Virus record (IMG/VR): IMGVR_UViG_3300028608_000007
Location: 1 to 64,000 of that record
Direction: 5' to 3' (one strand)
DNA length: 64,000 nucleotides
From: a virus
Positions 23,200 through 64,000 of this stretch are shown in pieces. The first letter of the stretch is position 1. Each line of letters begins with the position of its first letter. The notes under the pieces were generated by a model. It saw only the letters and a program-made list of their open reading frames with translations. It had not been told where the DNA came from and did not search any database. The position numbers and the translations under genes are program-made.

Positions 23200-24828
23200 A
23201 TGGGCACTATCATTGTTAAGTACCCTGAAGACCCAACGGGGATCAACCCCAACAACCTGGTCATCAACGAGCCTCACGATCTTGGAGCAGGGCGCAATCG
23301 CGCCTTTGTTCCTAACTACGGTTCCTACTTCACGGAATCGATGATCGTTACTGAGGCTGCGACCGGGCGGGTCCTCACCAAGGGTACGCACTACATCGCT
23401 GCACAGTTGCAACAAGAAGCCACTCTGGCGATGGACAAAGAGATTTGTGCCGTCGTTGTCATCACTGACCCGAGTGTACAGGACCAACTGTTGTTCACCT
23501 ACCAAGTTGTTGGTGGTGTGTTCAGCACGTCGGTCTCCGCGTTGCAGAAAATGATCGAAGACCTCGATCTGGACGAGCGGGCTGTTGAGTGGGGCGCCAT
23601 CATTGGTAAGCCTACTGCTTTCCCACCTGCTCCTCACCTCCACGATATCGGCGACCTGTACGGTTTCGAATACCTCGTGGAAGCACTGGATGCGCTGCGT
23701 AACGCCATCTTGATCGGTGACGAAGCTGCGCACGATGAACTGCGACAGTACATCCAGTACGAAGACGGGTTGCTGCGGGCAAGCATTGCTGAGCTGAAAG
23801 GTCAGTTCGATGCTCACGCCCAAGACAAGAACAACCCGCATGGTACTACCAAAGCTCAGGTCGGACTTGGTTCGGTCGAGAACTACGGTATCGCTACCAC
23901 TGCCGAAGCCCAAGCAGGTACTTCCAACGCGAAGTACATGACTCCTCTGCGTACGGCCGAAGCGATTGCTCAGCAAGCGTTGATTCCTTTGAACGCACAC
24001 ATTGCGGACAAGAACAATCCACACCAAACCACTAAAGCCCAAGTTGGCTTGGGTAGTGTGGAGAACTACGCGATTGCCACCACGGCAGAAGCGCAGGCCG
24101 GTACCAGTGACGTGAAGTACATGACGCCTTTGAAAACCAAAGACGCCATTGCCCAACAAGCACTGATCCCCCTGAACAACCACATCGCCGATAAGAATAA
24201 CCCCCACCAGACCACCAAGGCACAGGTTGGGTTAGGTTCCGTTGAGAACTACGGCATTGCGACGACCGCTGAGGCTCAAACGGGTACCAGCGATATCAAG
24301 TACATGACTCCGTTGAAGACCGCACAAGCGATCTCTCAGCAGGCTCTCGTACCGCTGAATGCTCACATCGCTGACAAAGGTAACCCTCACGGTACGACCA
24401 AGGCGCAAGTGGGCTTGTCGGATGTGGACAACTTCGCAACAGCTACTCAGGCTGAGGCTCAGGCTGGTGTGCTGAACACCAAGTTCATGACGCCGCTGCG
24501 AACTGCGCAGGCTATTGCCCAGCAAGTGGGGAACACCCTGACGGCTCACATCAACAACCAGTCGAACCCTCACAACGTGACCAAGTCGCAGATCGGTCTA
24601 AGTCTGATTCCGAACTCGATCACTCGTAGTCGGGCTACCAACTCTGACGGTTCGTTGCTGACGGCTGGCGGTATGTACGATCACGTGAACTCTGCGGACC
24701 ACGATGCTCGTTACGCTCCGAAGAACACGGCAGGCGTTGACTGCTCGGTTCACTGGAACGGTGCAGGTGTGTACGTCTGGGGCGGTGGTGCATGGCGTCA
24801 AGTGTGGCCTGCTCAGTGGGCTGCGTAG
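23200..24828 (+). CDS. Tail fibre protein with ~60-residue repeats (fibre 2)
   Basis: The 542-residue protein starts MGTIIVKYPEDPTGIN and carries five near-regular repeats (23811-24612) of the form H-I-A-D-K-N-N-P-H-x-T-T-K-A-Q-V-G-L-G-S-V-E-N-Y followed by YMTPL.T. It ends in a short Trp/Gly-rich tip (VYVWGGGAWRQVWPAQW). The repeats are more alike than those of fibre 1, so they may recombine. It is the last fibre gene before the modification operon. Confidence 0.85.
   Translation: MGTIIVKYPEDPTGINPNNLVINEPHDLGAGRNRAFVPNYGSYFTESMIVTEAATGRVLTKGTHYIAAQLQQEATLAMDKEICAVVVITDPSVQDQLLFTYQVVGGVFSTSVSALQKMIEDLDLDERAVEWGAIIGKPTAFPPAPHLHDIGDLYGFEYLVEALDALRNAILIGDEAAHDELRQYIQYEDGLLRASIAELKGQFDAHAQDKNNPHGTTKAQVGLGSVENYGIATTAEAQAGTSNAKYMTPLRTAEAIAQQALIPLNAHIADKNNPHQTTKAQVGLGSVENYAIATTAEAQAGTSDVKYMTPLKTKDAIAQQALIPLNNHIADKNNPHQTTKAQVGLGSVENYGIATTAEAQTGTSDIKYMTPLKTAQAISQQALVPLNAHIADKGNPHGTTKAQVGLSDVDNFATATQAEAQAGVLNTKFMTPLRTAQAIAQQVGNTLTAHINNQSNPHNVTKSQIGLSLIPNSITRSRATNSDGSLLTAGGMYDHVNSADHDARYAPKNTAGVDCSVHWNGAGVYVWGGGAWRQVWPAQWAA
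23811..24612. repeat. Five ~60-codon fibre repeats
   Basis: Tandem in-frame repeats of about 180 bases inside fibre 2. Three central copies share nearly the whole HIADKNNPH-QTTKAQVGL block, a possible substrate for repeat-number change. Confidence 0.85.
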
Positions 24829-24884: not shown

Positions 24885-25394
24885 ATGGGTAATGTGAGTA
24901 GTGGTTCTTTATTCCAATATATCACAGAGTCTACCCTAAGGGTAGACGACATCCTTAGTAGTCCTTACCCCTTTGAGCAACAGCTTGTAAAGATTCTCAA
25001 CAAGGGCATTGTCATCGACGCTCTAAGTGCTTCGGATGTATTGGAGCACTCTGATAAGGTCATCAAGATTGAAGGAATGGAGAAACTCTGTCCAGTCCTG
25101 TTCAAGGCTTGCAAAGACCTGGCAGAAGTCATGGAACATGATGGGCCTGTAACTTGCCATCTGTTCCTGTCTCCTGTTGGGGGCAAGAGCTTCCCAACAC
25201 ACACTGATCCTGACGACGTGTTTTTGTACATGGTCAGTGGTATGAAACACATGGCGGTCAATGACAACGTTAAACTGCTCACCGCAGGAGACTCGTTGTT
25301 GATCCCTCGGAACACACCCCACAGAGCACACAACCTGAACGCCTCGAAGATGTTGAGCTTTGGGTTGGAACGCTTTATTGTTGAGAAGCTCTGA
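24885..25394 (+). CDS. JmjC/cupin-type 2-oxoglutarate-Fe(II) oxygenase-like protein
   Basis: The 169-residue protein carries FPTHTDPDDVFLYMVSGMKH followed ~30 residues later by LLTAGDSLLIPRNTPHRAHN. This is the H-x-D...H iron triad and PGD-like turn of JmjC/cupin hydroxylases such as ribosomal-protein or peptide hydroxylases. It is shorter than most family members. It heads the plus-strand operon, and its stop overlaps the start of the first radical SAM gene (TGATG). Codon use looks less biased than in the fibre genes, hinting at separate acquisition. Likely reaction: hydroxylation of a protein side chain. Confidence 0.65.
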   Translation: MGNVSSGSLFQYITESTLRVDDILSSPYPFEQQLVKILNKGIVIDALSASDVLEHSDKVIKIEGMEKLCPVLFKACKDLAEVMEHDGPVTCHLFLSPVGGKSFPTHTDPDDVFLYMVSGMKHMAVNDNVKLLTAGDSLLIPRNTPHRAHNLNASKMLSFGLERFIVEKL

Positions 25395-26428
25395 TGACCA
25401 AGACTATCTACGTCAAGACCACTGGCAGTTGCAACTTGAACTGCCAGCATTGTTTCACCGGAGGCCGTAACGGTGACCGGACACAGTTCGATCCCCAGCA
25501 GTACGGGGATTGGATTGAGGACTACATGTCCAAACATCCTCGGGGGACTCAGTATCACCTTGAGTTCCACGGGGGTGAACCTTTCCTTGTGCCGTTAGCC
25601 AAGCTTACAGAGTTGGCTGATCGGTTCTTTGAGCGGGAAGGGGTGTCGATGTGTGCGAACAGTAACCTCACGTTCAAGATCACAGATGACATCCTTGCCT
25701 TTATCCAGAAGTATTTCTACGGCCACATTGGTACGAGTTGGGACCACTGGATTCGCTGGAGTAATCAAAAGCAATTTGATCTCTGGCGCTCAAATCTTTC
25801 TATGCTCCGCGAGCACGGAGTATGTATTTACTTAAAGGTGTCTGTCAGTCGGGAGTTGATCAACACCACGGCTGATTGGTTCTTGGATCAGATCGAAAGC
25901 TTTGGGGTGAGTGAAGTCTCCTTGGAGCGGTTGACCTGTGATGGCAATGCCAAAGAGAATATGGACATCTTCCCAGACAACGAGGCGCAGGACAACTGGT
26001 ACCTCGAGCTGTACAAGCGTTACAAGCAACGCAAGCCCAAAGTCAAGATCCGCACCTTGGACATTCTCGAAGAGAAGCTTAAGTACAACGTGGTGGCTGT
26101 GGATACCAACTGTCGCAACTGTGAACAGAACTTGGTGACCATGAACTCCAACGGGACCTTAGGCGGTTGTCCAAACGTAGCCTCTGCTCGAAAGCACGCA
26201 CGTTTAGAACAGGGGGCTGATGCATTCCTGAACTCCGAAGACCGAGTGTCCGAGATCGCTAAGGAACTGACGTGGGGTGATGGTTGCCTTAATTGTGACG
26301 TCTTCGATTTATGCGGTGGCGACTGTCACCGATTGCCTTGGCAGCAAGGTCGCTGTGGCGGCTTGAAGAATACGCTGAGGTATCTGTCGGGACGTTCTAC
26401 TCAGTCCAATTTGATTATCAAGGTGTGA
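25394..26428 (+). CDS. Radical SAM / SPASM peptide-modifying enzyme 1
   Basis: The 344-residue enzyme has the 4Fe-4S SAM motif C13-x3-C17-x2-C20 (CNLNCQHC) and the SAM-binding GGE (EFHGGEPF). A C-terminal SPASM region holds NCRNC, GGC, and GCLNCDVFDLCGGDC, able to bind auxiliary clusters. SPASM enzymes modify peptides and proteins (thioether, C-C crosslink, epimerisation). It lies two bases upstream of the gene for the Cys/His-tailed protein, which makes that protein the first candidate substrate. Confidence 0.85.
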   Translation: MTKTIYVKTTGSCNLNCQHCFTGGRNGDRTQFDPQQYGDWIEDYMSKHPRGTQYHLEFHGGEPFLVPLAKLTELADRFFEREGVSMCANSNLTFKITDDILAFIQKYFYGHIGTSWDHWIRWSNQKQFDLWRSNLSMLREHGVCIYLKVSVSRELINTTADWFLDQIESFGVSEVSLERLTCDGNAKENMDIFPDNEAQDNWYLELYKRYKQRKPKVKIRTLDILEEKLKYNVVAVDTNCRNCEQNLVTMNSNGTLGGCPNVASARKHARLEQGADAFLNSEDRVSEIAKELTWGDGCLNCDVFDLCGGDCHRLPWQQGRCGGLKNTLRYLSGRSTQSNLIIKV

Positions 26429-26429
26429 A

Positions 26430-26984
26430 ATGACGGACGTAACAAGACAGAGCGTCGCTGACTTATTCAACGGCGTCGTGCGTGCCAACGCCAACGCTGG
26501 TATCTCGTGGGGCAACAACAACTATCCTGCTGGTGCTCTGGCAGGTTGGTTCGGTGGCTCCACTGGTGGTTTGGCCTTAGCAATGGGTGCTGGTGACATT
26601 GCTGCGGGTAACCTCTCCGCTTCTAACGTAGCTGCTGTGCTGCGTAACTTCACTAACCAGTGGTCTGCTATCCGCCGTACGCGCATCGTGATCTACTACG
26701 CGTGGAACAGTGGTGAGGACTTTGTCAACTCTGGTGTGAACGTGCAGTATGATGGTACAGCCATTGCCTATACTGCGTACCCGGCTGGAGCGCCTGGTAA
26801 CAACGCAGCATTGCCTGGTCTGGCTCAAGGGGCTAACGTCTCTTACAGCAACATGCAGGCGTGCGTGAATAACCTGTGGGGTCAGTACTACGAGATGTGC
26901 CGTAACACCACCCTGACTCTCACCAACACTGTCTGCCACACAAGCTGCCACGACAACTGCCACTGTGCACGCGGTCGTCGTTAA
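26430..26984 (+). CDS. Candidate modification substrate: small protein with Cys/His-ladder C-terminus
   Basis: The 184-residue protein has an Ala/Gly/Asn-rich body (~1-140) that reads like a compact virion protein. It ends in VCHTSCHDNCHCARGRR, with Cys at 169, 173, 177 and 179 and His at 170, 174 and 178. Two more Cys lie at 145 and 157. A regular Cys-His-x-x ladder before a basic end is what a metal-binding or enzymatically modified tip would look like. It sits directly between radical SAM enzyme 1 and two unknown genes. It could be a RiPP-like precursor, a fibre-tip protein, or a zinc-binding protein. Family not recognised. Confidence 0.6.
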   Translation: MTDVTRQSVADLFNGVVRANANAGISWGNNNYPAGALAGWFGGSTGGLALAMGAGDIAAGNLSASNVAAVLRNFTNQWSAIRRTRIVIYYAWNSGEDFVNSGVNVQYDGTAIAYTAYPAGAPGNNAALPGLAQGANVSYSNMQACVNNLWGQYYEMCRNTTLTLTNTVCHTSCHDNCHCARGRR

Positions 26985-26995
26985 GGAGAACCCCA

Positions 26996-27739
26996 GTGGA
27001 TAAACCCACCGTCATTGTTGAAACCGTAGCACCCATTCCGCTGGACGTCCTCAAGCGTAAGTTCACCGAAGATATCGAGTTCCATATCGACTACGAGAAC
27101 TCCAGGCTCAAGGGTAAGGTGTTGATCACCTACCTGTCGAACTTGAAGATCAAGTGTCGGTTGATCTTGAATGATCGCGAGACTACGTTGCTGTTGATCC
27201 AAGAGTACCTGAACATTCCGGTACTGGTCGACATGCCTGACCTCGCAGACCACGCCATGAACATGCTGTTGGATTACACCGGCAAGCCAAGTACGGTAGT
27301 GGGTGATCTGGTTGAGTTCTACACGTTCAACCGCGAGATCCTGAACACGTGGGTGCGTCGTCTGTACTCGATGCCGCTGTTTGCCATGTACTGCATGGGC
27401 GACCAGTATCACGAGTACGTCGAAGGTTTCCCGAAAGATGAAGAAGATAACATCGCTGGTATCAACTTCGTCAACCTGCTGCGTCATCCCTTGTTTGCAG
27501 TAATGCTCGAAGGGGTAGAGGAAGACCAGTACACTTGGAACCCTGTGTTCTTCAAGGAGTACATCTTCCAGGGCAACAACCTGTTCCACTATTTCGCCGA
27601 TCGCAACAACCCGCTGTTCATGGGTGTGCTGGCGCTCCAAGACCCTGAGTCGTTCAAGGCTTATAGCACCGCTCTCGCAAACGAGGTGCGTGACTCCCAA
27701 GCCCTTCTGAAAGGTATCGGTTATGTACCATCTCTTTAA
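26996..27739 (+). CDS. Hypothetical protein, 247 aa
   Basis: Unknown. It starts at GTG 26996 with AAGGAGA upstream, overlapping the stop of the substrate gene. Globular and rich in aromatic and acidic residues, with no cluster-binding cysteines. It overlaps the next gene by 17 bases, so the two are probably co-produced and perhaps partners. A virion or chaperone role is as likely as an enzymatic one. Confidence 0.7.
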   Translation: MDKPTVIVETVAPIPLDVLKRKFTEDIEFHIDYENSRLKGKVLITYLSNLKIKCRLILNDRETTLLLIQEYLNIPVLVDMPDLADHAMNMLLDYTGKPSTVVGDLVEFYTFNREILNTWVRRLYSMPLFAMYCMGDQYHEYVEGFPKDEEDNIAGINFVNLLRHPLFAVMLEGVEEDQYTWNPVFFKEYIFQGNNLFHYFADRNNPLFMGVLALQDPESFKAYSTALANEVRDSQALLKGIGYVPSL

Positions 27740-28778
27740 CTCGGTGTACGTGGACTCTGAACGCCGTGTCATGCGTGACGTGAATAACATCACCATCTCG
27801 CCTCACATCGGTTACGAGTACTTCCCTGGCCCGAACGAGAAAGCCGGTCGTCAGATTGGTTACGCTCGTACACTCGATGAAGTCGAACCAGCGGTGCTGA
27901 TGGGTTGGCTCAAAGAAGCCATGCTGTCGGAAGAGAAGACCTTCATCTTCTGTGATGGTCCGACCTACCTGCGGCTGTACACCATGCTCGTCAAGTGTCT
28001 GGTGCCTCAGATCGACCTCGAAACTTTCCGCTGGGTTTGGCTGTGCAAGAAGGCTACCTTCAACACGTCCCTGACCAACTGGAAGCAGCCAGGTAACAAC
28101 GTCCTTGAAGGCGTGGTGATCAACAACGAGGTCATCCTCGATCTGGCTGAGTTCGAAGACCCGCTGCAAGGCCCGTTCAACGAACTGATGGCTGGCGATG
28201 ATGAAATCGTATCGCTGGAATGGCACATCTTCCGTCTGGCGGCGGTGGGCTACACTGGCATCGTACCAAAGCGTCTGAAGAACATCCTGCGTCGTATCGC
28301 TCTGGCGAACACTCACGATGCACTGGACGTTTGGGGTCGTGTGATCACTGATCCGTCGAACTGGGAATACGCTGGCGCTGATCTGGACACTCTGCTGAAT
28401 GCCCCATCGGTATTCGAAGGTGCCTTGAACATGCACTACACCAACAATCCGATCTTCTTGAAGCCTGGGCTGTTCGTGAAGTTCCCACAAGACCAGTGGC
28501 TGTGCAACCTGCTCGAAGAACTGCAACCGTTGCTCGAACGCATCGGTGAAGGTCCAACGGCTAAGCGGACGACCAAGATCCTGATGTTCTTGCAAGACCG
28601 CAATCCGCTGAATGATCCTGGTGCCTGCTTGCAGCGCTGCCGTGACATCTTCACTGGACCTGACCGCCTGGCCATGCCAAACCGGGACTCGAGCAAGTAC
28701 GACGAGAACCTGATCCGTTACATCCTAAGTCGTGACCAGAAAGATCTGGCGCGCATGTTTGAAGGGGCAACTTGGTGA
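27723..28778 (+). CDS. Hypothetical protein, 351 aa
   Basis: Unknown. Globular; many Leu, Trp and Asn-Pro turns. The strong codon bias resembles structural genes. It overlaps the upstream gene by 17 bases and the radical SAM 2 gene by 4 bases (GTGA), so it is embedded in the modification operon. No motif supports a specific role. Confidence 0.7.
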   Translation: MYHLFNSVYVDSERRVMRDVNNITISPHIGYEYFPGPNEKAGRQIGYARTLDEVEPAVLMGWLKEAMLSEEKTFIFCDGPTYLRLYTMLVKCLVPQIDLETFRWVWLCKKATFNTSLTNWKQPGNNVLEGVVINNEVILDLAEFEDPLQGPFNELMAGDDEIVSLEWHIFRLAAVGYTGIVPKRLKNILRRIALANTHDALDVWGRVITDPSNWEYAGADLDTLLNAPSVFEGALNMHYTNNPIFLKPGLFVKFPQDQWLCNLLEELQPLLERIGEGPTAKRTTKILMFLQDRNPLNDPGACLQRCRDIFTGPDRLAMPNRDSSKYDENLIRYILSRDQKDLARMFEGATW

Positions 28779-29785
28779 ATCTAATCCCGGTGGTAGACGT
28801 ACTCGCTGAGAAGAAAGGGCCGACGAAAGAAGCGCACTTGATCCTCTTCGAGAAATGTAATCTGCGTTGCTCGTTCTGCCACCAGGACCACGATTCTACC
28901 GTTGGTCTTGATGCTGAGGAGATCATGCGTAAGGGGATCAAGCTCGTTGAGCAATCGGACCTCGAAGCACCGATCGTAATCAACATCACTGGCGGCGAGT
29001 TGTTCACGGACGACATCGAAGACTGGATGTTTGGGTACTACCATGCGCTGGGTGAGTACCTGTTGAATAACTTCAAGCGTGTCAAGTTGGTCTACGGGAC
29101 TAACTTGGTGTACGAAAACGTGTGGCGCGTTGAACGCATGATGATCATGCTGAACAACCTGTGCGACAAGGACAAGCAGGAAGTTGTCTTAGCGACGTCA
29201 TACGACCCCGCAGGCCGGTTTAACCCAGCCCAGCGGGAATTGTTCTTCAAGAACTTGGATCGTGTTGGCATGTGGGTCGACACGGTAAACGTAGTGATCA
29301 CGAGACAGAACATCGACGTCTTCCTGAACGACCGCGAGGGCGTTGAGGTGAAAGATCTGGCGTACGACTACGATCTGTATTTTGATCATTACATACCAAG
29401 CGAAAGATATGAAGAGCACCAACCTACCGAGTCACAGATCCGTCAACTGTATTTGAAGTTGGCTGAGCGGTATCCTAACTCGTATCCCATAAAAGCCTGG
29501 AAAGAACAGCGCTTTAATGACACGACCTGCCGTTCCACCAAGATCATCAACAAAGATGGTGTGGTGACTACGTGTTGGTCGGAAGCGGGTAAGGATGCGG
29601 TCCTCGACGAAGGGCAAGGGTTGGCTGCGAAACATGCGGCTGAAGAACGATTCATCGAACACTACGGGTGTCTGTCGTGTGAGTATTACCAACGCTGCGG
29701 TTTGCGTTGCTTCCTCCACCACAGCTTTATCGAAGGCTCTTCCAAAGAGTGCGAGATCAAGCTCCTGTTCGACGAAATCTTGTAG
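28775..29785 (+). CDS. Radical SAM / SPASM enzyme 2
   Basis: The 336-residue enzyme has C28-x3-C32-x2-C35 (CNLRCSFC), a SAM-binding NITGGELF and a SPASM-type end with TTCRS, TTCWS and GCLSCEYYQRCGLRC plus a last Cys near the C-terminus. I use the GTG at 28775, overlapping the preceding stop. A hairpin terminator follows the gene, so transcription of the genes after it may be reduced or restarted. Confidence 0.85.
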   Translation: MNLIPVVDVLAEKKGPTKEAHLILFEKCNLRCSFCHQDHDSTVGLDAEEIMRKGIKLVEQSDLEAPIVINITGGELFTDDIEDWMFGYYHALGEYLLNNFKRVKLVYGTNLVYENVWRVERMMIMLNNLCDKDKQEVVLATSYDPAGRFNPAQRELFFKNLDRVGMWVDTVNVVITRQNIDVFLNDREGVEVKDLAYDYDLYFDHYIPSERYEEHQPTESQIRQLYLKLAERYPNSYPIKAWKEQRFNDTTCRSTKIINKDGVVTTCWSEAGKDAVLDEGQGLAAKHAAEERFIEHYGCLSCEYYQRCGLRCFLHHSFIEGSSKECEIKLLFDEIL

Positions 29786-29787
29786 CC

Positions 29788-29825
29788 CAGGGCCGGTGGT
29801 AAAAGCCACCGGCTTTGTGCCGTCC
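29788..29825 (+). terminator. Tagged terminator inside the modification operon
   Basis: GCCGGTGG / CCACCGGC hairpin followed by TTTGTGCCGTC, a one-base variant of the TTTATGCCGTC tag. It separates radical SAM 2 from radical SAM 3. Confidence 0.75.
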
Positions 29826-29839
29826 TTAAGGGGAAACCT

Positions 29840-30931
29840 GTGAACCTGATTATTAAGCCGACTGTCAACTGTAACTTCAAGTGTACGTTCTGCTCGAGCA
29901 CACACTTGTCAGAAGAGGCTAAGGACATCGTCGAGTTGGAAGACATTGAACGCTTCCTCGTACGCTACCCTGAAACCCAAACCATCATTGTTAACGGTGG
30001 CGACCCTCTGATGATGCCCCCTAAGTACTACTGGGACATGATCGCAATCCTCGACCGTCTGGAGATGGATAACTGTACGATCTCGTTCACCACTAACCTC
30101 TGGGCGTTCCACAAGAAGCCCGAGCTGTGGACTGAACTGTTCCGCCACGAACGTATCGGCGTAACCACCTCGTTCCAATACGGTGACAAACGTCTCAAGG
30201 GAGACCGAACCCCGTTCACCGAGAAAGAGTTCCTTGAGATCTCTGACCAGTTCTTGGAGCTGGTAGGTTATCGCCCTGACTTCATTGCGGTGATTGACCA
30301 AGACAACGTTGACTCCGTCATGAACACCGTGAACCTTGCTAAGCTCCTAGGGATCGAAGCGAAGATCAACTACGTGTCTGCCTCAGGACCTGAGGTGAAC
30401 AACCGTGGTGTGATCATGGGGAGCATCAACAACTTCTACACCCAAGCTGACATGTACGAACAGTATGTGGCGATCTATGATGCAGGTTTAGGGGAATGGG
30501 AGTACAACACCAAACAGATGGCACGCCGTTTGAAACACGGTAACACCACGTGTCCTCTGTCTCGTAACTGCGACTCTGGAATCCGTGCACTCCAACCGGG
30601 TCGTAACTACTACTCGTGCGGTAGCTTCGGCGATGATGGCGAATACCCTATCTCGTTTGAAGCCGAAATGCAGGGTCAGTTCTTTACCCCGCTGCAAGAA
30701 GCGTTTGAAATCGACACGATGAAGAACGCGTGTTACGAGTGCCCGATGTTCAGCATTTGTAATGGTTGCCGCAAGACTATCGCTGACACCAAACGGTTTG
30801 GGTTGGTTGAACACCATTGCAAGAAGATGAAGTCCCTCGCTCCACGTATCATCGAGATCAACGGAATGGCTGGGTTGATTGAACCCACCCCGTACGTTGA
30901 TGAATCCGTCCAGATTATCGCAAGAGGTTAA
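29840..30931 (+). CDS. Radical SAM / SPASM enzyme 3
   Basis: The 363-residue enzyme starts at GTG 29840 (AAGGGG upstream). It has C11-x3-C15-x2-C18 (CNFKCTFC) and VNGGDPLMMP in the GGE position. Its SPASM-like C-terminus carries TTCPLSRNC, YYSCGSF, and NACYECPMFSICNGC followed by HHC. The product is likely a peptide- or protein-modifying enzyme. It opens the second half of the operon after the internal terminator. Confidence 0.85.
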   Translation: MNLIIKPTVNCNFKCTFCSSTHLSEEAKDIVELEDIERFLVRYPETQTIIVNGGDPLMMPPKYYWDMIAILDRLEMDNCTISFTTNLWAFHKKPELWTELFRHERIGVTTSFQYGDKRLKGDRTPFTEKEFLEISDQFLELVGYRPDFIAVIDQDNVDSVMNTVNLAKLLGIEAKINYVSASGPEVNNRGVIMGSINNFYTQADMYEQYVAIYDAGLGEWEYNTKQMARRLKHGNTTCPLSRNCDSGIRALQPGRNYYSCGSFGDDGEYPISFEAEMQGQFFTPLQEAFEIDTMKNACYECPMFSICNGCRKTIADTKRFGLVEHHCKKMKSLAPRIIEINGMAGLIEPTPYVDESVQIIARG

Positions 30932-30932
30932 C

Positions 30933-31349
30933 ATGACTGTAGTAGTGAATGAAAACGTAACACTGATCAGTGGACCACTCGACAGTAGCGGTGGCGGTAC
31001 AGATTACCACTGCTGTCACCTCGATGGCGAACCACTGGTTGATCAGGTAGAACAGTTCAACGGCAAGAACATCACTGTGCGTTACTGGGTTAGCAGTACC
31101 CCACTGACCAGCGTGGAAGAAGCCGACGAACAAACCCTGAAACAGGTTATGGGTTTCCTCGACGCCGATATCAGTCACAGCTACTCCGACGTCACTGGGT
31201 ATCTCTGGACCGACGAACACTTGAAGGTCGGTGGCCACAACGTCCTGGAGGAAATCTGGGAGCTGTGTAACAACGGTCGTTGGGTTGACGGCAAGTACGT
31301 AGACATCTACCTCCTGATGGAAATCACGGTCCATGAAGAGCCCAATTAA
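30933..31349 (+). CDS. Hypothetical protein inside the radical SAM cluster, 138 aa
   Basis: The function is unknown. The ATG at 30933 follows AGAGG and the previous stop, and the end overlaps radical SAM 4 by 17 bases. It begins with beta-rich sequence (NVTLISGPLDSSGGG) and contains a CCH. Its small size and place between two radical SAM genes make it a candidate partner (precursor-recognition protein) or second substrate, but nothing proves this. Confidence 0.65.
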   Translation: MTVVVNENVTLISGPLDSSGGGTDYHCCHLDGEPLVDQVEQFNGKNITVRYWVSSTPLTSVEEADEQTLKQVMGFLDADISHSYSDVTGYLWTDEHLKVGGHNVLEEIWELCNNGRWVDGKYVDIYLLMEITVHEEPN

Positions 31350-32292
31350 CCTCAGTGTTAACCTCACCTACTACTGCAACTTTAAGTGTGGGTTCTGTTA
31401 CCTCACGCCAGAGCAGTTGAGAGACCGCCAACGCCTTCCGTTAGACCTACTCGAGCAAAGACTCGATGAAGTCATGGCGCAGTACGAGATCCACCACGTT
31501 GACCTTTACGGCGGTGAGGTCATGGTGCTGCCGAAGGAATACTTGTTCGAGGTTCGTGACATCCTCCACAGTCGTGGGATTGATGACATCGTACTGGTAA
31601 CCAACGGTTCCATCATGAACGAAGTCACCGCATGTGAAGACTTCGATTTAACGGTCTCCTACGACCTCTCTGCACGTGAGAAGAGCGATCAGGTACTGTC
31701 CAACCTCTTTATGCTCGATCGGCCTTATACGCTGCTTACGCTGGCTTCCAGAGCGTTCTTGGATACCGTTTCGGTAGACGACTATGTGAACGAGCTGAAT
31801 ATGCTCAATCGCATGAAGTGTGCTGAGATAAAACCGTACTCCACCAACCAAGCTAACCAACACCGGGTCTCGTACAAAGAGTATGAAGACTTCGTGTGGG
31901 CTGTGATCACTCACCCTAACCGTCAGTTCTATTTTGAGAACCGTACACAGGTGAAGGAAGCGGTTGAAGGTGTGCGTAATGCTTACAGTGACGATCACTT
32001 GTACATCACCCCTGAGGGTGAGTTTGCAGTGCTGGAGTTCGATCACAAAGACCATGAGTTCTTCTTGCGCATGGATTCGTTACATGACTACCGTAACTGG
32101 TGTCAGGTTGAGCGATTCCGCGTAGAAGGCAATCTGTTCTGCGGCGCGTGTCCTTACAAAGGAAACTGTCTGTCGGAACACTTACGCGATGTGAAGTCCT
32201 TGGACAACTCCTGTAACGGGTTCCGAGGACTCTTAGACAGGTGGGCTGAACATGCAAGTACAACACCGACAGCGCCTGGAGATCACCCTTGA
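31333..32292 (+). CDS. Radical SAM enzyme 4 (twitch/SPASM-like)
   Basis: The 319-residue enzyme has C15-x3-C19-x2-C22 (CNFKCGFC) and DLYGGEVM. Its C-terminus has FCGACPYKGNC then SCNG, enough cysteines for one auxiliary cluster. It overlaps its neighbours on both sides (17 bases upstream, 41 bases downstream), so expression is tightly coupled. Confidence 0.83.
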   Translation: MKSPINLSVNLTYYCNFKCGFCYLTPEQLRDRQRLPLDLLEQRLDEVMAQYEIHHVDLYGGEVMVLPKEYLFEVRDILHSRGIDDIVLVTNGSIMNEVTACEDFDLTVSYDLSAREKSDQVLSNLFMLDRPYTLLTLASRAFLDTVSVDDYVNELNMLNRMKCAEIKPYSTNQANQHRVSYKEYEDFVWAVITHPNRQFYFENRTQVKEAVEGVRNAYSDDHLYITPEGEFAVLEFDHKDHEFFLRMDSLHDYRNWCQVERFRVEGNLFCGACPYKGNCLSEHLRDVKSLDNSCNGFRGLLDRWAEHASTTPTAPGDHP

Positions 32293-33268
32293 CATCTTTC
32301 GAGGGTGTGGTCACTCCTGTGCAGGCTGCATGATTGACAAACAACTAGGGGGTGAGGTTTCAGACATCCCTGAGTTGCTGCTGTTGATCCAAGAGATGGA
32401 AGCTGTGGGTTACGTACCCTTTGACTTAGGTGTCGGACCTACAGACTACATGACCTCGAACAACGTACAAGACGTGATGGGCAACGAGACCTTCCAAGAG
32501 ATGGCTCAGTTGTTCCATCAGGTGACCTTCAACGCTGCGTTCTTGGAAAAGGATCTGGACAAGTACTCCGAGATGTGCCAAGACATTGATCTGGCGTGTC
32601 CCGGTAAGCCTATCCGGTTCCTCATTCCAGCAGCCCCCACCTTCTTCAAGAACGACAAGTTTGGCAACATGATTGAAGCCAAGCTTAATCACTGTAAAGA
32701 AGCTTTCCAGTCAGCCTTCTTGAATGAGGCAGGCTTTGTCGTAACGTGTAACCATGAGACGATGGATGAGAACTTCGACCAGTTGATTCGACGCGGGATG
32801 GATGTTGAATTCCCAGTGGACAAAGACGACATCCTCAACATTCCGTATGGTCGCTCCAAGAACCTGGACCTAATGGTGTCTCAACGGGTCTTACGTGTCT
32901 CCCACGCCATCAGTGAGTTCTATGCAGGGCTTTCTGGTGAGGACGAGCGTCGTCGTAACCCTGATTTGCACTACGACACAGGGACGATGGTTAACTTGTT
33001 GTACACAGGTGGGAAGCTGTATTGGGTTCCCTTCCTTAAAGACGACTGTCCGTTCATTCACGACGAGTTTGTGATCCCAAGGCCCTGGACTATGTCTAAC
33101 CTCTTGCGCGTGCGTAACGAGGCTATGGAGCGTTCTGTAGAGTACCTCAAAGATACCAAGTGTCTTGAGTGTGTACACTTCGCTAGCTGCATGGAGAAGG
33201 GCATCAGCACCATCATGCAGAAGCTGTCGATTCGTGATTGCTTGGTGGGCTTAGATCATGTTTCCTGA
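32252..33268 (+). CDS. Radical SAM enzyme 5 (GPTD subtype)
   Basis: The 338-residue enzyme has C19-x3-C23-x2-C26 (CGHSCAGC). In place of GGE it has DLGVGPTDYMTSNN. The C-terminus has KCLECVHFASC followed by DCL, a reduced auxiliary-cluster region. It is clearly homologous to enzyme 6, with the shared FVIPRPWTMSNLL / FELPRPWTSESVL block. A tandem duplication is likely. Confidence 0.78.
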   Translation: MQVQHRQRLEITLDIFRGCGHSCAGCMIDKQLGGEVSDIPELLLLIQEMEAVGYVPFDLGVGPTDYMTSNNVQDVMGNETFQEMAQLFHQVTFNAAFLEKDLDKYSEMCQDIDLACPGKPIRFLIPAAPTFFKNDKFGNMIEAKLNHCKEAFQSAFLNEAGFVVTCNHETMDENFDQLIRRGMDVEFPVDKDDILNIPYGRSKNLDLMVSQRVLRVSHAISEFYAGLSGEDERRRNPDLHYDTGTMVNLLYTGGKLYWVPFLKDDCPFIHDEFVIPRPWTMSNLLRVRNEAMERSVEYLKDTKCLECVHFASCMEKGISTIMQKLSIRDCLVGLDHVS

Positions 33269-34295
33269 GCTGATCGGCATGTCCTTAAACCTGAACCTTG
33301 AGATCCTCACCGGGTGTGGGTTCAGTTGTCCTGGCTGTACTGTGGAGAAGAACTTTGCACCGTTCGAGTTACCAGCCGCCGATACACAAGCGCTCGAAGC
33401 TTTCGTACTCGACCTCCGGGCGCAACAGTGGAGGCTCCTCGAGTTCAAAGTCGGGCCCACTGATATTTGTAGTTCTGATAACGGCTTTGCTGCTCTGGGT
33501 CACCCATTAGTCAAAACCTTGGCTCAACATTACAAAGCGTTGAACATCAACCTTGCGATGTTGAGTACTCGAGGCTTTGAAGAGTTAGCGCCGTTGCTCG
33601 ATGCGTTGATGCCCGGTAAGAAGCTCTCTGTGACGGTTCCAATGACGTTGAAGAACATTGGTAACCCAAAGTACCGGGCTGTGTTGAAAGAGCATGTAAC
33701 GTACTTTAAGAGCCTTCTGAAAGAGGTGGACTTTAACCGGGTGTACGCAGGGTTCAACGTGGTCGAGGAAAACCTCACCCACTTGGATCTTGAACACTAC
33801 GAGTTAGCCCACACACTGGACCTAGGTAACGTAGGGATCGTGGTGGAGTTCCCGTTTGCTCACTCACGCCAAGGGTTCAACAACCTCTTGAACGTCGAGA
33901 AGTTCAAACGTGATCTGGCGGTGTACTCTGAGTTCGCTAAAGCGCGAGTCAACACTCAGATGTTCCGTCCTTTGCAACCTGCGATCTTGGAAGGTTTTGA
34001 ATTCACGTACCGAGGCGGTAGTTTGTACACCACTCCGGTACTGATCGAAAACTTCCCAATCTTCCATCCTGACTTTGAGTTACCCAGACCATGGACCTCC
34101 GAGTCTGTATTAGCTTACAAACAGGAGAGATACTACGATAACCTGATCGAGTATGCCGAGCACCCCGAGTGTGGGAATTGCTGTTTCCTCGATCATTGTG
34201 CACGCGGTGACGTCCATCGCATCATGAAACTGATTGGGAAAGACACATGTCTGACAAACACCCGCAATCGGAGCGACCTGTTAATCCCGGAGTAG
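33258..34295 (+). CDS. Radical SAM enzyme 6 (GPTD subtype)
   Basis: The 345-residue enzyme has C20-x3-C24-x2-C27 (CGFSCPGC), KVGPTDICSSDN in the GGE position, and a C-terminal ECGNCCFLDHC followed by DTC. It is a paralogue of enzyme 5 and overlaps it by 11 bases. Its end overlaps the next oxygenase gene by 49 bases, an unusually long overlap. Confidence 0.78.
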   Translation: MFPELIGMSLNLNLEILTGCGFSCPGCTVEKNFAPFELPAADTQALEAFVLDLRAQQWRLLEFKVGPTDICSSDNGFAALGHPLVKTLAQHYKALNINLAMLSTRGFEELAPLLDALMPGKKLSVTVPMTLKNIGNPKYRAVLKEHVTYFKSLLKEVDFNRVYAGFNVVEENLTHLDLEHYELAHTLDLGNVGIVVEFPFAHSRQGFNNLLNVEKFKRDLAVYSEFAKARVNTQMFRPLQPAILEGFEFTYRGGSLYTTPVLIENFPIFHPDFELPRPWTSESVLAYKQERYYDNLIEYAEHPECGNCCFLDHCARGDVHRIMKLIGKDTCLTNTRNRSDLLIPE

Positions 34296-34741
34296 AGGGT
34301 AACTTCCCCATCATCTTGGACTATATCAGGTTCCCAGAAAACCTTCCTGACCTAGCTCTCTGTCAAACCAACAAAGAGTTTATCACGGACCCTGAGATCA
34401 ACGACTACGTCACCACCCATCTCTTGTCTCAAGTGCGCGAGAGGGTAAAGGTGGACGAAGGTTACGAGCTACATGCTTGCGCCAATCACGTTCATATCGG
34501 CGACCAAGGGATCAACATCCACGATCATCAACCTCACGCTCTGACGTCTGTCCTCTTCTTGACGCAGTCTGATGGCATGCTGGTCTTGCATGAAGATCCC
34601 GTCACTCCTGGTCAAGCTATCAAGCCTAAACCGGGACGCTTTGTAATCATGAAGGGAACCACGCTCCATCAAGTATTCCCTTCTCCCATGCCTGAACTTC
34701 GAATTACTTTGGTGTCCAACTATGAATGTCGCCGTCCATAA
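34247..34741 (+). CDS. Double-stranded-beta-helix Fe(II)/2OG oxygenase-like protein A
   Basis: The 164-residue protein has INIHDHQPHALTSVLFL, then GRFVIMKGTTLHQVFPSPMP and RITL. The order H-x-H...H...R fits the 2OG-Fe(II) oxygenase group related to prolyl hydroxylases seen in phages. The first pair is HDH rather than the classic H-x-D. Probable role: hydroxylation of a protein substrate, in the same unit as six radical SAM enzymes. Confidence 0.6.
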   Translation: MSDKHPQSERPVNPGVEGNFPIILDYIRFPENLPDLALCQTNKEFITDPEINDYVTTHLLSQVRERVKVDEGYELHACANHVHIGDQGINIHDHQPHALTSVLFLTQSDGMLVLHEDPVTPGQAIKPKPGRFVIMKGTTLHQVFPSPMPELRITLVSNYECRRP

Positions 34742-35159
34742 GCAGTATCAAGAGTTGTACGCCTCGGTTGTCCAAGAACACTCTGACGACTTCTCGAAGA
34801 TGTTGTTTGTTGAAGACGGAGAGTTGGTGGAGAACGCCAAGCAGTACTTCCTCAAGGCTGAGTTCCCGTTGATCTATCCAGCCAAGTCGATGGCAGTAGC
34901 AGTGATCTACGCTCTGTTGCTGGAAGAGACCTACGCGATCAATCCGTTTGATTCGTTGAAGGACCCTGACTTGTTCTTAGGACAAGACCCCTACTTCGAA
35001 CCGTATGACAAACATCCGAATGAGTACGACCAGTTGCTCGAGTGGGTACTCAGCCATGACAACTGGAAGGAGCTAGGTTGGGCTCCGAAGACCTGTGAGT
35101 ACTTCCGTTTGGAGTGCACCGCAGAAGGCATTCAAGAAGTGATGGAGAACCTCGGATGA
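34722..35159 (+). CDS. Hypothetical protein, 145 aa
   Basis: The function is unknown; acidic, helical, with aromatic clusters (DPYFEPYDKHPNEYD). It overlaps oxygenase A by 20 bases and oxygenase B by four, so it is translationally coupled to both and may be an accessory subunit or a target. Confidence 0.7.
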   Translation: MNVAVHKQYQELYASVVQEHSDDFSKMLFVEDGELVENAKQYFLKAEFPLIYPAKSMAVAVIYALLLEETYAINPFDSLKDPDLFLGQDPYFEPYDKHPNEYDQLLEWVLSHDNWKELGWAPKTCEYFRLECTAEGIQEVMENLG

Positions 35160-35716
35160 ACATTATCCAACCTTGGCAGACCCCGCTTGGTCATTCGAAC
35201 TTTGCTCAGTGTTTGGACCTCACCGCACTCAAAGATGAGATCGGTGCGCTGGCACTGATGTCAGACCAAGAAGACGGTGGACAGCGTTACGTCAATGACT
35301 ACTCGACGTTCCCCAACATCGTTCACTTGATCCGTGACATCATCGACCATGAGGTCAAAGAGTACGTCCAGAAAATGTGGGACTACAACCTCGGTGACTT
35401 CCGTCGGGAAACCAACGCCAAGTGGATTCCACCGGGTGAGGGTCTGTACCCGCACTACCACCCTGGTTCACAGATGTCGGCGATCTTCTACCCGGAAGAC
35501 TCTCCATCAGGGTTGGCGATGTTTGATCCACGAGGTAATGCGTGTCGTGGTTATCCCAAACCGATCCGCAATCGCTTCATGGCTCCGCACCTGATCTCTC
35601 CTGCGGCGGGTGATCTGTGGATCTTCCCTTCCTTCGTACAACACAGCGTCTCCTACGTGAAAGAGGACACGCGGCTTTCTATGTTGTGTGAATACTACTT
35701 CTCTGACGAGCGCTAA
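35156..35716 (+). CDS. Fe(II)/2OG oxygenase-like protein B
   Basis: The 186-residue protein has PHYHPGSQMSAIFYPED, then FDPRGNACRGYP, then GDLWIFPSFVQHSVS and TRLSM. This matches the phage/bacterial putative 2OG-Fe(II) oxygenase family with HxH, a conserved DPRG, and distal H and R. The ATG at 35156 overlaps the preceding stop (ATGA). It is a tandem paralogue of the next gene. Confidence 0.75.
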   Translation: MNIIQPWQTPLGHSNFAQCLDLTALKDEIGALALMSDQEDGGQRYVNDYSTFPNIVHLIRDIIDHEVKEYVQKMWDYNLGDFRRETNAKWIPPGEGLYPHYHPGSQMSAIFYPEDSPSGLAMFDPRGNACRGYPKPIRNRFMAPHLISPAAGDLWIFPSFVQHSVSYVKEDTRLSMLCEYYFSDER

Positions 35717-35718
35717 CC

Positions 35719-36273
35719 ATGGAACTGATTCAACCCTGGAACACGTCTATCTTCAAAGGTAACGTGTCCCACATGTGCAACGTGGAAGACATCGCTAACG
35801 AGATCCTGACTCTCCACAGTCTGTCTCCACAAGAGTCCACCACCCCTCACAAAGTCACTCCCGAAGAGTTCCCAGCTCTGTGCGACTTCCGCGATCGCGT
35901 CGTGACCAATCTGGTTAAGGAGTTTGCATGGCAGACCATGCACTTCGACTTGACCGAGTTCACTGTCGATACGTTCGGTAAGTGGTTTGCTAAAGGTTCT
36001 GACCTGGCCCCACACGTTCACGGTAGCACTGGTTTCACCACCATCTTCTACCCGGACGATTACGAATCGGGGATGATGATCTTCGACCCTCGTGGGAATG
36101 CTTCGCGTGGCTATCCTCGCAAGATTCGCGACGAACACTTCGCTCCGTACACCGTGTACCCGAAGAAGGGTGACCTGTACATCCTGCCTTCGTTCCTGCA
36201 ACACTACGTGCCGACCGTGAAAGACGATCTGCGCCTGTCGCTGATCAACGACTACATGTTCAAGTCGATCTAG
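35719..36273 (+). CDS. Fe(II)/2OG oxygenase-like protein C
   Basis: The 184-residue paralogue of protein B has the same opening (MELIQPWNT versus MNIIQPWQT), PHVHGSTGFTTIFYPDD, FDPRGNASRGYP, and GDLYILPSFLQHYV followed by LRLSL. It starts two bases after protein B ends and closes the modification operon before the terminator at 36277. Confidence 0.75.
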   Translation: MELIQPWNTSIFKGNVSHMCNVEDIANEILTLHSLSPQESTTPHKVTPEEFPALCDFRDRVVTNLVKEFAWQTMHFDLTEFTVDTFGKWFAKGSDLAPHVHGSTGFTTIFYPDDYESGMMIFDPRGNASRGYPRKIRDEHFAPYTVYPKKGDLYILPSFLQHYVPTVKDDLRLSLINDYMFKSI

Positions 36274-37029: not shown

Positions 37030-38598
37030 ATGGGTGCATTAGCGAGTTACTTCCCTTCTATGGAAGAGGAGTTGCAAGATCCCGAGGACTTTCTAGGTCC
37101 CGGTGCATTAGTAGAAAGTCGAGTGGCTTCGGAACGTGCCGATGACGACGTGCAGGCTCTGAGTGAGATCCATGCTACGTTGGAGTCGCTGTCTGCTTCG
37201 ATGGAAGCTTGTCTGGAAGCTGACCCGTTTACCCCCGTCTTCATCAACCATGCTCTTGACTCGATTGGTCGTCGTACCGGTCTGAGACTGCCTGCGGCTT
37301 CGATGGAAGACGCTTCTGTCTCCATCAGCATGGAAGGGTTAGGTGGTGCACTCAAAGCCATCTGGGACGCTATCGTTAAGGCTGTGAAAGCAGCTCTTAA
37401 AGCGGTGGCTGACTTCTTCCGTCGGATCTATGAGCTGGTTGCTGGTAAGCGCAAGAAGATCGAGGCAGGCTTTGCTAAGGCTAAGAAAGAAGGTGACTCC
37501 ACGCCTTCCAAACTGGCCGACACCAACAACCTGTCGAAGGTCGCTGACTCAGAGATCGAAGCCCTCAAGAAGAAGCTCAAGACCCCTGAGTTGGTCAAGT
37601 GTCGTAAAGACCAACTGGTTGCACTGACTGCTGCGGCAGCCACTGTGATCGACCGGGCTAACATCTTGGATGGTAACCAAACCATCCCTAAAGAAGAGAT
37701 CACTCACGGTGGTGAATCCTTCACCTTCGTGCGTCGTGAAGATGTTAAGCGTGCCAAGTACGTCAAGCTCTGCCAAGCAGGTAATGACTTCATCGCTCAC
37801 GCCAGTGTTGCCGGTGTCTCGCTGGCTGCCCTGAAAGAGCATCGCTGCGAGATCAGCATCGGTGACGTTACCGAAGTGGTCTGGGAGTGTCTGTACCGAG
37901 GCAAAGAGATCCGTGATGTAGGTAACAACGTTTCCGCTGCGGTTCTGGAAATCTCGAGACTGGCCATCGCAAAGATGAAAGGGTACTTCGCTAAGGACCG
38001 CAAAAACACCCCTGGCGACTTCCATTTCAGTAGTCAAAGCGACGCTATGAATGCTGAGGTGTTGGCCAAGTTCGAAGTGGTCCGCAACGAGTTCAAAAGG
38101 ATCACTGGTAAGGATGGTTGGATTCCTGCTGGTCGTCGTGTGGTTAAGTTCCTGGAACCCAAGAACGTTTACCACTTGTTCCCTGAGTCGAATGGGATGC
38201 CAGAGCTTGCTAAGTTCACTGAGAGCGAAGTCTTGCTGAATATCCCAACTTGGTCTGAATCCAAGAAGGCTTCGGATGGCGTGACCTCGCTGCTGATCCT
38301 CAATACGCAGAAGGACGTTATCACCGCCATCAACATCGGCTTTGACCGCGCGTTGGATGAATGGAACGCAGCCATCAAGTGGGTTGCTGAACAAGGACAC
38401 GGTGACAAGACCCCAGTAGTCACCAAGTACTTCACGGACTACTGCAAACTGTTCTTCACCGATATCCAAACTCAGTACAACCGTTTCCTGCGCTCGCAAC
38501 TGGCAATGGAAGGTACAGCGATTCAATGGGCCGAAGTTCTGTCTGGTACCATGGCTCGTCTGGCCGATGCCAAAGATCTCGTTGAGGAACTTGCTTGA
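37030..38598 (+). CDS. Probable inner-head/virion protein with multiple S-x-E protease sites
   Basis: The 522-residue protein has SME at residues 10-12, 57-59, 91-93 and 100-102, then an Ala/Lys-rich amphipathic helix (GGALKAIWDAIVKAVKAALK). Clustered S-x-E sites are the prohead-protease motif of phiKZ-type phages, so the first ~102 residues may be a removed propeptide. It follows the endolysin gene by ten bases. It could be an inner-body or ejected protein; this is inferred. Confidence 0.6.
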   Translation: MGALASYFPSMEEELQDPEDFLGPGALVESRVASERADDDVQALSEIHATLESLSASMEACLEADPFTPVFINHALDSIGRRTGLRLPAASMEDASVSISMEGLGGALKAIWDAIVKAVKAALKAVADFFRRIYELVAGKRKKIEAGFAKAKKEGDSTPSKLADTNNLSKVADSEIEALKKKLKTPELVKCRKDQLVALTAAAATVIDRANILDGNQTIPKEEITHGGESFTFVRREDVKRAKYVKLCQAGNDFIAHASVAGVSLAALKEHRCEISIGDVTEVVWECLYRGKEIRDVGNNVSAAVLEISRLAIAKMKGYFAKDRKNTPGDFHFSSQSDAMNAEVLAKFEVVRNEFKRITGKDGWIPAGRRVVKFLEPKNVYHLFPESNGMPELAKFTESEVLLNIPTWSESKKASDGVTSLLILNTQKDVITAINIGFDRALDEWNAAIKWVAEQGHGDKTPVVTKYFTDYCKLFFTDIQTQYNRFLRSQLAMEGTAIQWAEVLSGTMARLADAKDLVEELA

Positions 38599-63088: not shown

Positions 63089-63478
63089 TCAATGTACCGT
63101 AGTCGGCGCGTAGAACACACGTTCACCTTGGCGGTATTCCTGCAAGTGCAGGCGTTTCCACGGGATCACGTTTCCAGCTTCCATTTGCTCGAGCAACTCA
63201 GGGTTGGTGTTATGCAGCGAGATCGGATTGCCGTAAGGCTTGAGTGCCTCAACCAGCGCAGGGTCCGTCATTACTTCCAACGACACCTTGCGACGGTTCT
63301 TGACCTCACGGGAGGTCGTGATGCGATCGATGAGTCCGAGCTGTTGAAATTTGATGTTGAAATACACGTATCCACCGGACGCTTTCTTCACCGCCACATA
63401 CGGCAGGTTAGGATCGAACATTCCAGTTTCAATACCCACGGGAACTGCCACTTCACGGCGCAGACTAAGCAGGCTCAT
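63089..63478 (-). CDS. Hypothetical protein, 129 aa
   Basis: Unknown. The start overlaps the end of the DHFR gene by 14 bases, so it is translated with it. It has FDPNLPYVAVKKASGGYVYF and a basic middle. No family recognised. Confidence 0.7.
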   Translation of the reverse strand: MSLLSLRREVAVPVGIETGMFDPNLPYVAVKKASGGYVYFNIKFQQLGLIDRITTSREVKNRRKVSLEVMTDPALVEALKPYGNPISLHNTNPELLEQMEAGNVIPWKRLHLQEYRQGERVFYAPTTVH

Positions 63479-64000
63479 CTTTGATCACCTTTCGTTCCAA
63501 TACGTTAATGTCGAATTTAACATCCTGGGTGTGGAATGTGATATCCCACTCCAGGGGATTCCATTCGGGAAAATACGTATCGCACTGGTAAGTACCGTGG
63601 ACAGTGGTCAAGCACATCTCCTCGACCAAATCCTTTTCCAGTACCTCAGCGTAAAGCTGTGCCCCTCCAATTACCACGGGGTTGCCTAAATCAACCCCAA
63701 GTGCGCGACTCCAATTTTCCCTTACGGCATCGCAAAGCTGGAACGCATGTTCCAGATCACGAGCCACATACAGCCCGAAGCGCAGGTAGTCTCTGACGTA
63801 GTCTTTCCCCGACAATACGATCAGAGCCCGGCCTGGTAGCAACGGTTGTTTCTCACTGCCCCACGATTCATCTGCGGGGAGCTTCTTACGCGCGATCAGG
63901 GAGTCGACGGTCTTACTCCCAGCGATCACGATTTTCCCGTAGGTGTAGTTGTAGAAGTTTCTCAAGTCTTCTGGACATTCCCACGGGAGATTATTGTTGA
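63465..64000 (-). CDS. Dihydrofolate reductase, N-terminus cut by window edge
   Basis: The frame is open to base 64000 and reads NNNLPWECPEDLRNFYNYTY, then GKIVIAGSKTVDSL. These match the DHFR substrate and NADPH-binding motifs (LPW, then T-x-G-K-x-V-x-G-x-x-T). Near the end comes PVVIGGAQLYAEVL, the second conserved glycine motif. It reduces dihydrofolate for thymidylate synthesis. About the first 15-20 residues are missing. TTG at 63965 is not the start. Confidence 0.9.
   Translation of the reverse strand, partial: NNNLPWECPEDLRNFYNYTYGKIVIAGSKTVDSLIARKKLPADESWGSEKQPLLPGRALIVLSGKDYVRDYLRFGLYVARDLEHAFQLCDAVRENWSRALGVDLGNPVVIGGAQLYAEVLEKDLVEEMCLTTVHGTYQCDTYFPEWNPLEWDITFHTQDVKFDINVLERKVIKDEPA

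Follow-up and report, generated by a model that had tools for sequence, protein, structure and literature searches.

The pathways closest to the system discussed here are those in which radical S-adenosylmethionine (SAM) enzymes modify a ribosomal product. The TvgA/TvgB/TvgC system co-encodes SPASM radical SAM enzymes and Fe/2-oxoglutarate (2OG) oxidases beside a product with short repeats, and TvgB modifies its TVGG repeats (PMC9062424). The His-Xaa-Ser (Hxs) and CXXX-repeat systems (TIGR03977, TIGR03978, TIGR04115) combine H-x-S or Cxxx repeat units with dedicated radical SAM maturases, while anaerobic sulfatase maturases and quinohemoprotein maturases have folded proteins as their substrates. 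The polytheonamide-type pathway is another route to ribosomally synthesized and post-translationally modified peptides (RiPPs) that employs radical SAM enzymes and 2OG oxygenases. The locus described here is viral. It is an operon of fifteen genes, g1 to g15, at 24885-36273 of a 64,000-nucleotide stretch (the window), which covers positions 1 to 64,000 of IMG/VR virus record IMGVR_UViG_3300028608_000007. Six of its genes encode radical SAM proteins, four encode cupin/2OG-type oxygenases, and one, g3, encodes a protein that ends in a Cys-His-x-Ser (CHxS) repeat tail. The operon is quite likely a dedicated, RiPP-like and virus-specific maturation module for g3, a probable virion protein, acting on its C-terminal tail.

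Linkage between the CHxS tail and the enzymes

The candidate substrate g3 (26430..26984, plus strand, 184 aa) consists of a folded body and the CHxS tail, CHTSCHDNCHCARGRR, which is encoded in frame at 26934..26984 on the plus strand, forms the exact C-terminus and is followed by the stop codon. The Cys-His-x-Ser repeats of the tail, closed by RGRR, contain three Cys and three His at constant intervals. A pattern scan finds the site only once in the genome, and the tail had not been pointed out in a preliminary description of the locus.

The tail and the enzymes are linked in both directions. The query of the motif-first search was a degenerate DNA pattern of the tail that took no account of the enzymes; it matched at least 119 viral stretches. 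Among the 119 matches listed, every tail is in frame and at the C-terminal end of its open reading frame (ORF), and 114 stretches carry at least one radical SAM gene of the module, the remaining five being truncated. In the enzyme-first search, blind to the motif, an alignment of the g2 radical SAM enzyme gave 362 relatives, of which 80 were kept; one ends inside the gene, leaving 79 testable loci. A CHxS-repeat protein is encoded immediately downstream of the g2-type enzyme in 78 of the 79, and 70 have the strict tail. Co-conservation across related phages, which the preliminary description had proposed as a check, is therefore borne out, and the arrangement in these 78 loci, a ribosomal precursor encoded beside modifying enzymes, is that by which RiPP clusters are recognised.

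The pattern read backwards had no match in ten genomes, while the real pattern had one per genome. A four-repeat DNA pattern served as a negative control, since most of its matches are tandem-repeat artefacts that lack radical SAM genes; true variants were found among them in L236, L242, L245, L249, L281, L291 and L303. The tail pattern was also run against 84,980 bacterial and archaeal genomes, where it occurs in 11 stretches only. Nearly all of these carry the label of a metagenome-assembled contig or bin, and most adjoin module genes, so that the CHxS system is essentially viral.

Gene content was counted in 62 loci with enough DNA, all of which have g2 by selection. The shared core consists of g4 (62 loci), g7 (61), g6 (60), the cupin gene (59) and g9 (56), and four or more radical SAM genes are present in 56 of the 62.

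Structure of g3 and its probable relation to the virion

In the AlphaFold2 model of g3 (pLDDT 88.6, pTM 0.82), the fold of the body extends as far as residue 169, and the CHxS tail is disordered and exposed. With about 165 residues in a body folded at high confidence and a 16-residue tail at the C-terminus, g3 is unlike a short leader-core precursor peptide. The model has no significant fold match in the PDB, and its matches among viral structure models are limited to a DT01-like protein, Atu_ph07 and a small number of uncharacterised phage proteins. No curated family was matched in Pfam, PHROG and NCBIfam scans; a Glyco_hydro_45 match (E 4e-4) fell below the cut-off and was rejected as chance. 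A tblastn search of phages with the 23-aa tail gave no match, the query being too short.

The g3 counterparts of phages DT01, FLC6, FLC8, SURPRISE13, Atu_ph07 and Phosso have close variants of the tail on strongly diverged bodies. When the last 20 residues are removed, 159 of 167 g3-type bodies fall into one single-linkage homology cluster. Natural variants have two, four to six, or about 14 CHxS units, a variation in number that is expected of a repeated modification unit. The substrate at L281:7959-8666 has about 14 CHxx units with VPV linkers between them.

Several features tie g3 to the virion, in which it is probably a tail-tip protein. In the g3 homologue of L175, the segment CHTSCHSSCHDSCHG runs into a Peptidase_S74 domain (E 1.5e-11) right behind the repeats. 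Peptidase_S74 is a self-cleaving chaperone of tail fibres; a Pfam scan found no such domain in g3 itself. The homologue of L291 is fused to Hint domains, of which the second copy is above the Pfam cut-off and the first below it. L245 has a Hint-like end as read from its sequence, which Pfam did not confirm. The gene directly upstream of the substrate, among 45 loci, matches tail or structural PHROGs in 17, Peptidase_G2 in eight, collagen in two and BppL_N in one; the last three groups, up to 11 loci, may overlap with the PHROG cases.

Virion mass spectrometry of Atu_ph07 assigned the majority of virion proteins to three gene clusters, one of which is CDS 170-215 (PMC6102473). The g3 homologue gp170 is the first CDS of this cluster, gp171 and gp172 lie inside it, and the module genes gp169-gp164 lie outside it. 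Radical SAM cassettes have also been placed in the host recognition cluster of pelagimyophages (PMC7029224).

Radical SAM enzymes and oxygenases

The enzyme content given in the preliminary description, six CxxxCxxC proteins, most of them SPASM- or twitch-like, one JmjC/cupin protein with HxD...H and three oxygenases with HxH...H...R, holds up: the CxxxCxxC motif and the auxiliary Cys are conserved in homologues, and the oxygenases are supported by Pfam matches, weaker for g12, and by conserved ligands. The radical SAM assignments are based on the CxxxCxxC motif, Pfam and NCBIfam models and homologue alignments. The motif occurs in g2, g6, g7, g9, g10 and g11, and is kept in 99-100% of the homologues of the first five. 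The Pfam Radical_SAM model is matched above its cut-off by g7 and g9 and below it by g2 and g6, and no Pfam radical SAM model matched g10 or g11.

The SPASM-type enzyme g2 (25394..26428, plus strand, as are all module genes) is encoded immediately 5′ of g3. It has CxxxCxxC in 114 of 115 homologues, conserved GGE and SPASM cysteines, and radical SAM enzymes, including the anaerobic sulfatase maturase anSME, as its nearest PDB relatives. The other two SPASM-type enzymes are g6 (28772..29785), with the motif in 104/104 homologues and seven auxiliary Cys, and g7 (29840..30931), called the most conserved member, with the motif in 90/90 and eight auxiliary Cys. The twitch-type enzyme g9 (31333..32292; motif in 79/79) has four C-terminal Cys, as have the divergent radical SAM proteins g10 (32252..33268; 49/49) and g11 (33258..34295; 73/76), which share a similar layout. 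The auxiliary Cys counts fit SPASM domains for g2, g6 and g7 (seven to eight) and twitch-like domains for g9-g11 (four). The g11 homologues at L005:17711-19144 (FLC6), L009:17217-18650 and L179:17229-18635 lack CxxxCxxC in their first 130 residues; they are possibly degenerate radical SAM partners, or their ORF starts are mis-set. Atu_ph07 gp164 (L006:17998-18711) is a g9 homologue without the N-terminal radical SAM motif, and the Phosso copy is intact (L007:13272-14192).

No radical SAM protein of the operon reaches the cut-off of a named radical SAM family in NCBIfam. The only NCBIfam radical SAM model reached is the general SPASM-domain model TIGR04085, by g2, whose top match is anaerobic sulfatase maturase at 47 bits against a cut-off of 349.

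The four oxygenases have conserved iron ligands, as judged from alignments, HxD...H in g1 and HxH...H in g12, g14 and g15. The cupin/JmjC-type putative 2OG hydroxylase g1 (24885..25394) scores above the cut-offs of both Cupin_2 (E 2.8e-11) and JmjC_2 (E 5e-9), and has HxD...H in about 100% of 104 homologues. The 2OG-Fe(II) oxygenase-like protein g12 (34247..34741) matches 2OG-FeII_Oxy_3 below cut-off (E 1e-4), with HxH...H...R invariant in 15 homologues. The 2OG-Fe(II) oxygenases g14 (35153..35716) and g15 (35719..36273) match 2OG-FeII_Oxy_5 at E 5.6e-10, above cut-off, and E 4e-6, just above it; HxH...H...R is at least 97% conserved in their family.

Proposed pathway and alternative explanations

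In the proposed pathway, the g3 body would fold and probably become part of the tail or receptor-binding structure whose genes lie just upstream, while the flexible C-terminal CHxS tail, closed by RGRR, would be the part that is modified. The SPASM and twitch radical SAM enzymes would carry out radical chemistry on Cys, His and Ser of this tail, giving cross-links or oxidations, and the JmjC/cupin protein g1 and the 2OG enzymes would add hydroxyl groups to residues in that tail, either ahead of assembly or in its course. Relatives of g1 in the JmjC_2 family hydroxylate His or Arg of ribosomal proteins, so these two residues are plausible targets of g1 by analogy. The protein g4, encoded at all fully covered loci, may act as a partner that binds or presents the g3 tail. 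From these sequence data we infer that the enzymes would act on the CHxS tail, and that the product may sit in the virion and serve host contact. A multiply modified protein made by a RiPP-like pathway beside fibre genes had been suggested in the preliminary description; the pathway is supported, probably acting on a virion protein, while its target is most likely g3 and not the fibres. The balance tilts slightly towards a broader conclusion, that two unrelated tailed-phage types carry a virus-specific pathway of multiple radical enzymes which converts a virion protein's repeat tail into a cross-linked, hydroxylated host-contact tip of a new kind, with no known counterpart.

Several points weigh against maturation of a virion-bound g3. 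Its modification is deduced here from genes and conserved residues. The tail pattern itself fixes the motif, so invariance of the tail in pattern-selected loci is circular and the enzyme-first loci are the only independent set. The S74 and Hint fusions are one case each, the gene upstream of the substrate is not a tail protein at some loci (ADH_N, GCHY-1), and the presence of gp170 in Atu_ph07 virions is read from a cluster boundary. Oxygen-sensitive radical SAM enzymes and oxygen-dependent 2OG enzymes are hard to reconcile in one pathway, a conflict that is eased by known radical SAM clusters with such oxidases (PMC9062424).

Three other explanations have to be considered. The repeat Cys and His might bind Fe, Zn or Cu in a metal-binding adhesive tip, with the enzymes merely tuning or protecting the ligands. 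The constant spacing of the three Cys and the three His and the expansion of the repeats favour such a tip, and iron-binding His motifs occur at the tips of T4 gp37 and of spikes; it is nevertheless unlikely, because ordinary metal sites need no radical SAM enzymes and the retention of four or more of them in most loci would be left unexplained. More improbable still is a role of g3 as a RiPP-type bioactive agent against the host or competitors, which would be secreted or injected and would be no lasting part of the virion. The RiPP-like enzyme set and the repeat-bearing substrate would suit such a product, but the conserved gene set includes no recognised peptidase, exporter or immunity gene, the predicted body of g3 is a folded domain of some 165 residues, and a homologue is fused to a tail-fibre chaperone domain in a module linked to tail genes.

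The least probable explanation, to which we give very little weight, is that the radical SAM enzymes have small molecules as products, or host proteins or nucleotides as substrates, in auxiliary metabolism or in viperin-like or counter-defence roles, with g3 as unrelated cargo. Such genes have been assigned to DNA repair, metabolism or heme synthesis (PMC8541153, PMC9301287). The best named matches of g9, to models and structures, are viperin, but at 47.6 bits against a cut-off of 180, and a defence-system library gave weak viperin similarity to the operon and nothing more. SPASM domains are typical of radical SAM enzymes that modify peptides or proteins, and the two-way linkage to a CHxS protein would not be expected of unrelated cargo.

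Other genes, genomic context and distribution

The protein g4 (26996..27739), encoded 3′ of g3, has a confident AlphaFold2 model (pLDDT 94.4) with no significant fold match in the PDB. Conserved proteins with no named function are g5 (27723..28778; 49/62 loci) and g13 (34722..35159; phrog_20737, E 1e-35; 47/62 loci), while g8 (30933..31349) is a small ORF with a weak PHROG match and is not universal. Family-library scans found no peptidase or transporter among the 15 genes.

ORF calling gives exactly 15 overlapping or adjacent plus-strand genes, directly downstream of three long plus-strand genes of virion/tail-fibre type (17678-20191, 20200-23184 and 23200-24828) with PHROG tail or virion structural matches, as the preliminary description had stated. 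Synteny of the operon extends to Pseudomonas phage pPa_SNUABM_DT01, which has six radical SAM genes in identical order, and to many contigs, and this is far beyond chance. The record, of 180,543 bases, is that of a giant phage of the phiKZ type, since a profile match at 37030-38598 identifies the gene of a phiKZ internal head protein. An Rfam search gave no match; sigma-70 promoters and terminators are rarer than in shuffled sequence and uninformative. A DHFR-like ORF lies at 63468-63998 on the minus strand.

The CHxS module is present in well over 100 viral contigs and is carried by at least two unrelated phage types: among 22 records tested, a T4-type capsid protein is present in 10 and a phiKZ-type internal protein in six, with no overlap. 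Cultured or sequenced phages with related modules include DT01, FLC6, FLC8, SURPRISE13, Atu_ph07 and Phosso, so the earlier statement that no phage was known with this many such enzymes has to be qualified. Burkholderia phages FLC6, FLC8 and SURPRISE13 have two dihydrofolate reductase genes (L005:20216-21429) within their module. A second layout, found in L011, L029, L037, L064, L080 and others, has a tandem pair of CHxS substrates, each about 130 aa long, followed by several g10/g11-type radical SAM genes.

Comparison with known systems

In published carrier phages the module genes are annotated singly, as DNA repair, metabolism or unknown, and our searches of the open literature turned up single-gene mentions and no description of the module as a unit; closed-access or preprint accounts are possible. 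Baltic viromes yielded 261 'ahbD' calls, of which only three contigs have both expected radical SAM domains (PMC9301287), and these calls may include radical SAM genes of the CHxS module. Some viral radical SAM genes listed as auxiliary metabolic genes of heme synthesis or DNA repair may be misread components of a virion maturation module. Up to six radical SAM and four oxygenase genes, apparently for one short tail, point to dedicated and extensive protein chemistry on phage particles. To our knowledge, chemistry of such extent has not been described on them. The candidate substrate is clear and its repeat is short, so that this chemistry would be open to mass spectrometry in phages already in culture.

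The Tvg-type system is bacterial and has a short peptide, a peptidase and a transporter, whereas the phage module is viral, has a folded 184-aa protein with a C-terminal tail, up to six radical SAM enzymes and a different motif, and lacks a peptidase or exporter. The radical SAM proteins of the phage fall far below the cut-offs of the Hxs and CXXX-repeat models (HxsB against g2, 26.3 bits, cut-off 370; HxsC against g7, 18.6 bits, cut-off 267.9; TIGR04115, the CXXX-repeat radical SAM model, against g6, 10.2 bits, cut-off 350), g3 belongs to no NCBIfam family, and the carriers are phages. Sulfatase and quinohemoprotein maturases act as one enzyme per protein, while the phage module combines a repeat tail with many enzymes. 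Fibres and spikes that carry S74 or Peptidase_G2 autoproteolytic chaperones are connected to the module through the S74 domain of the L175 homologue and the Peptidase_G2 domains of genes neighbouring g3 homologues; we know of no radical SAM or 2OG modification of such fibres. As far as the open literature and the family libraries show, there are precedents for radical SAM and 2OG modification of a ribosomal product, and none for the substrate family, the motif, the viral setting or the apparent virion role. What appears new is the system, and not the enzyme superfamilies.

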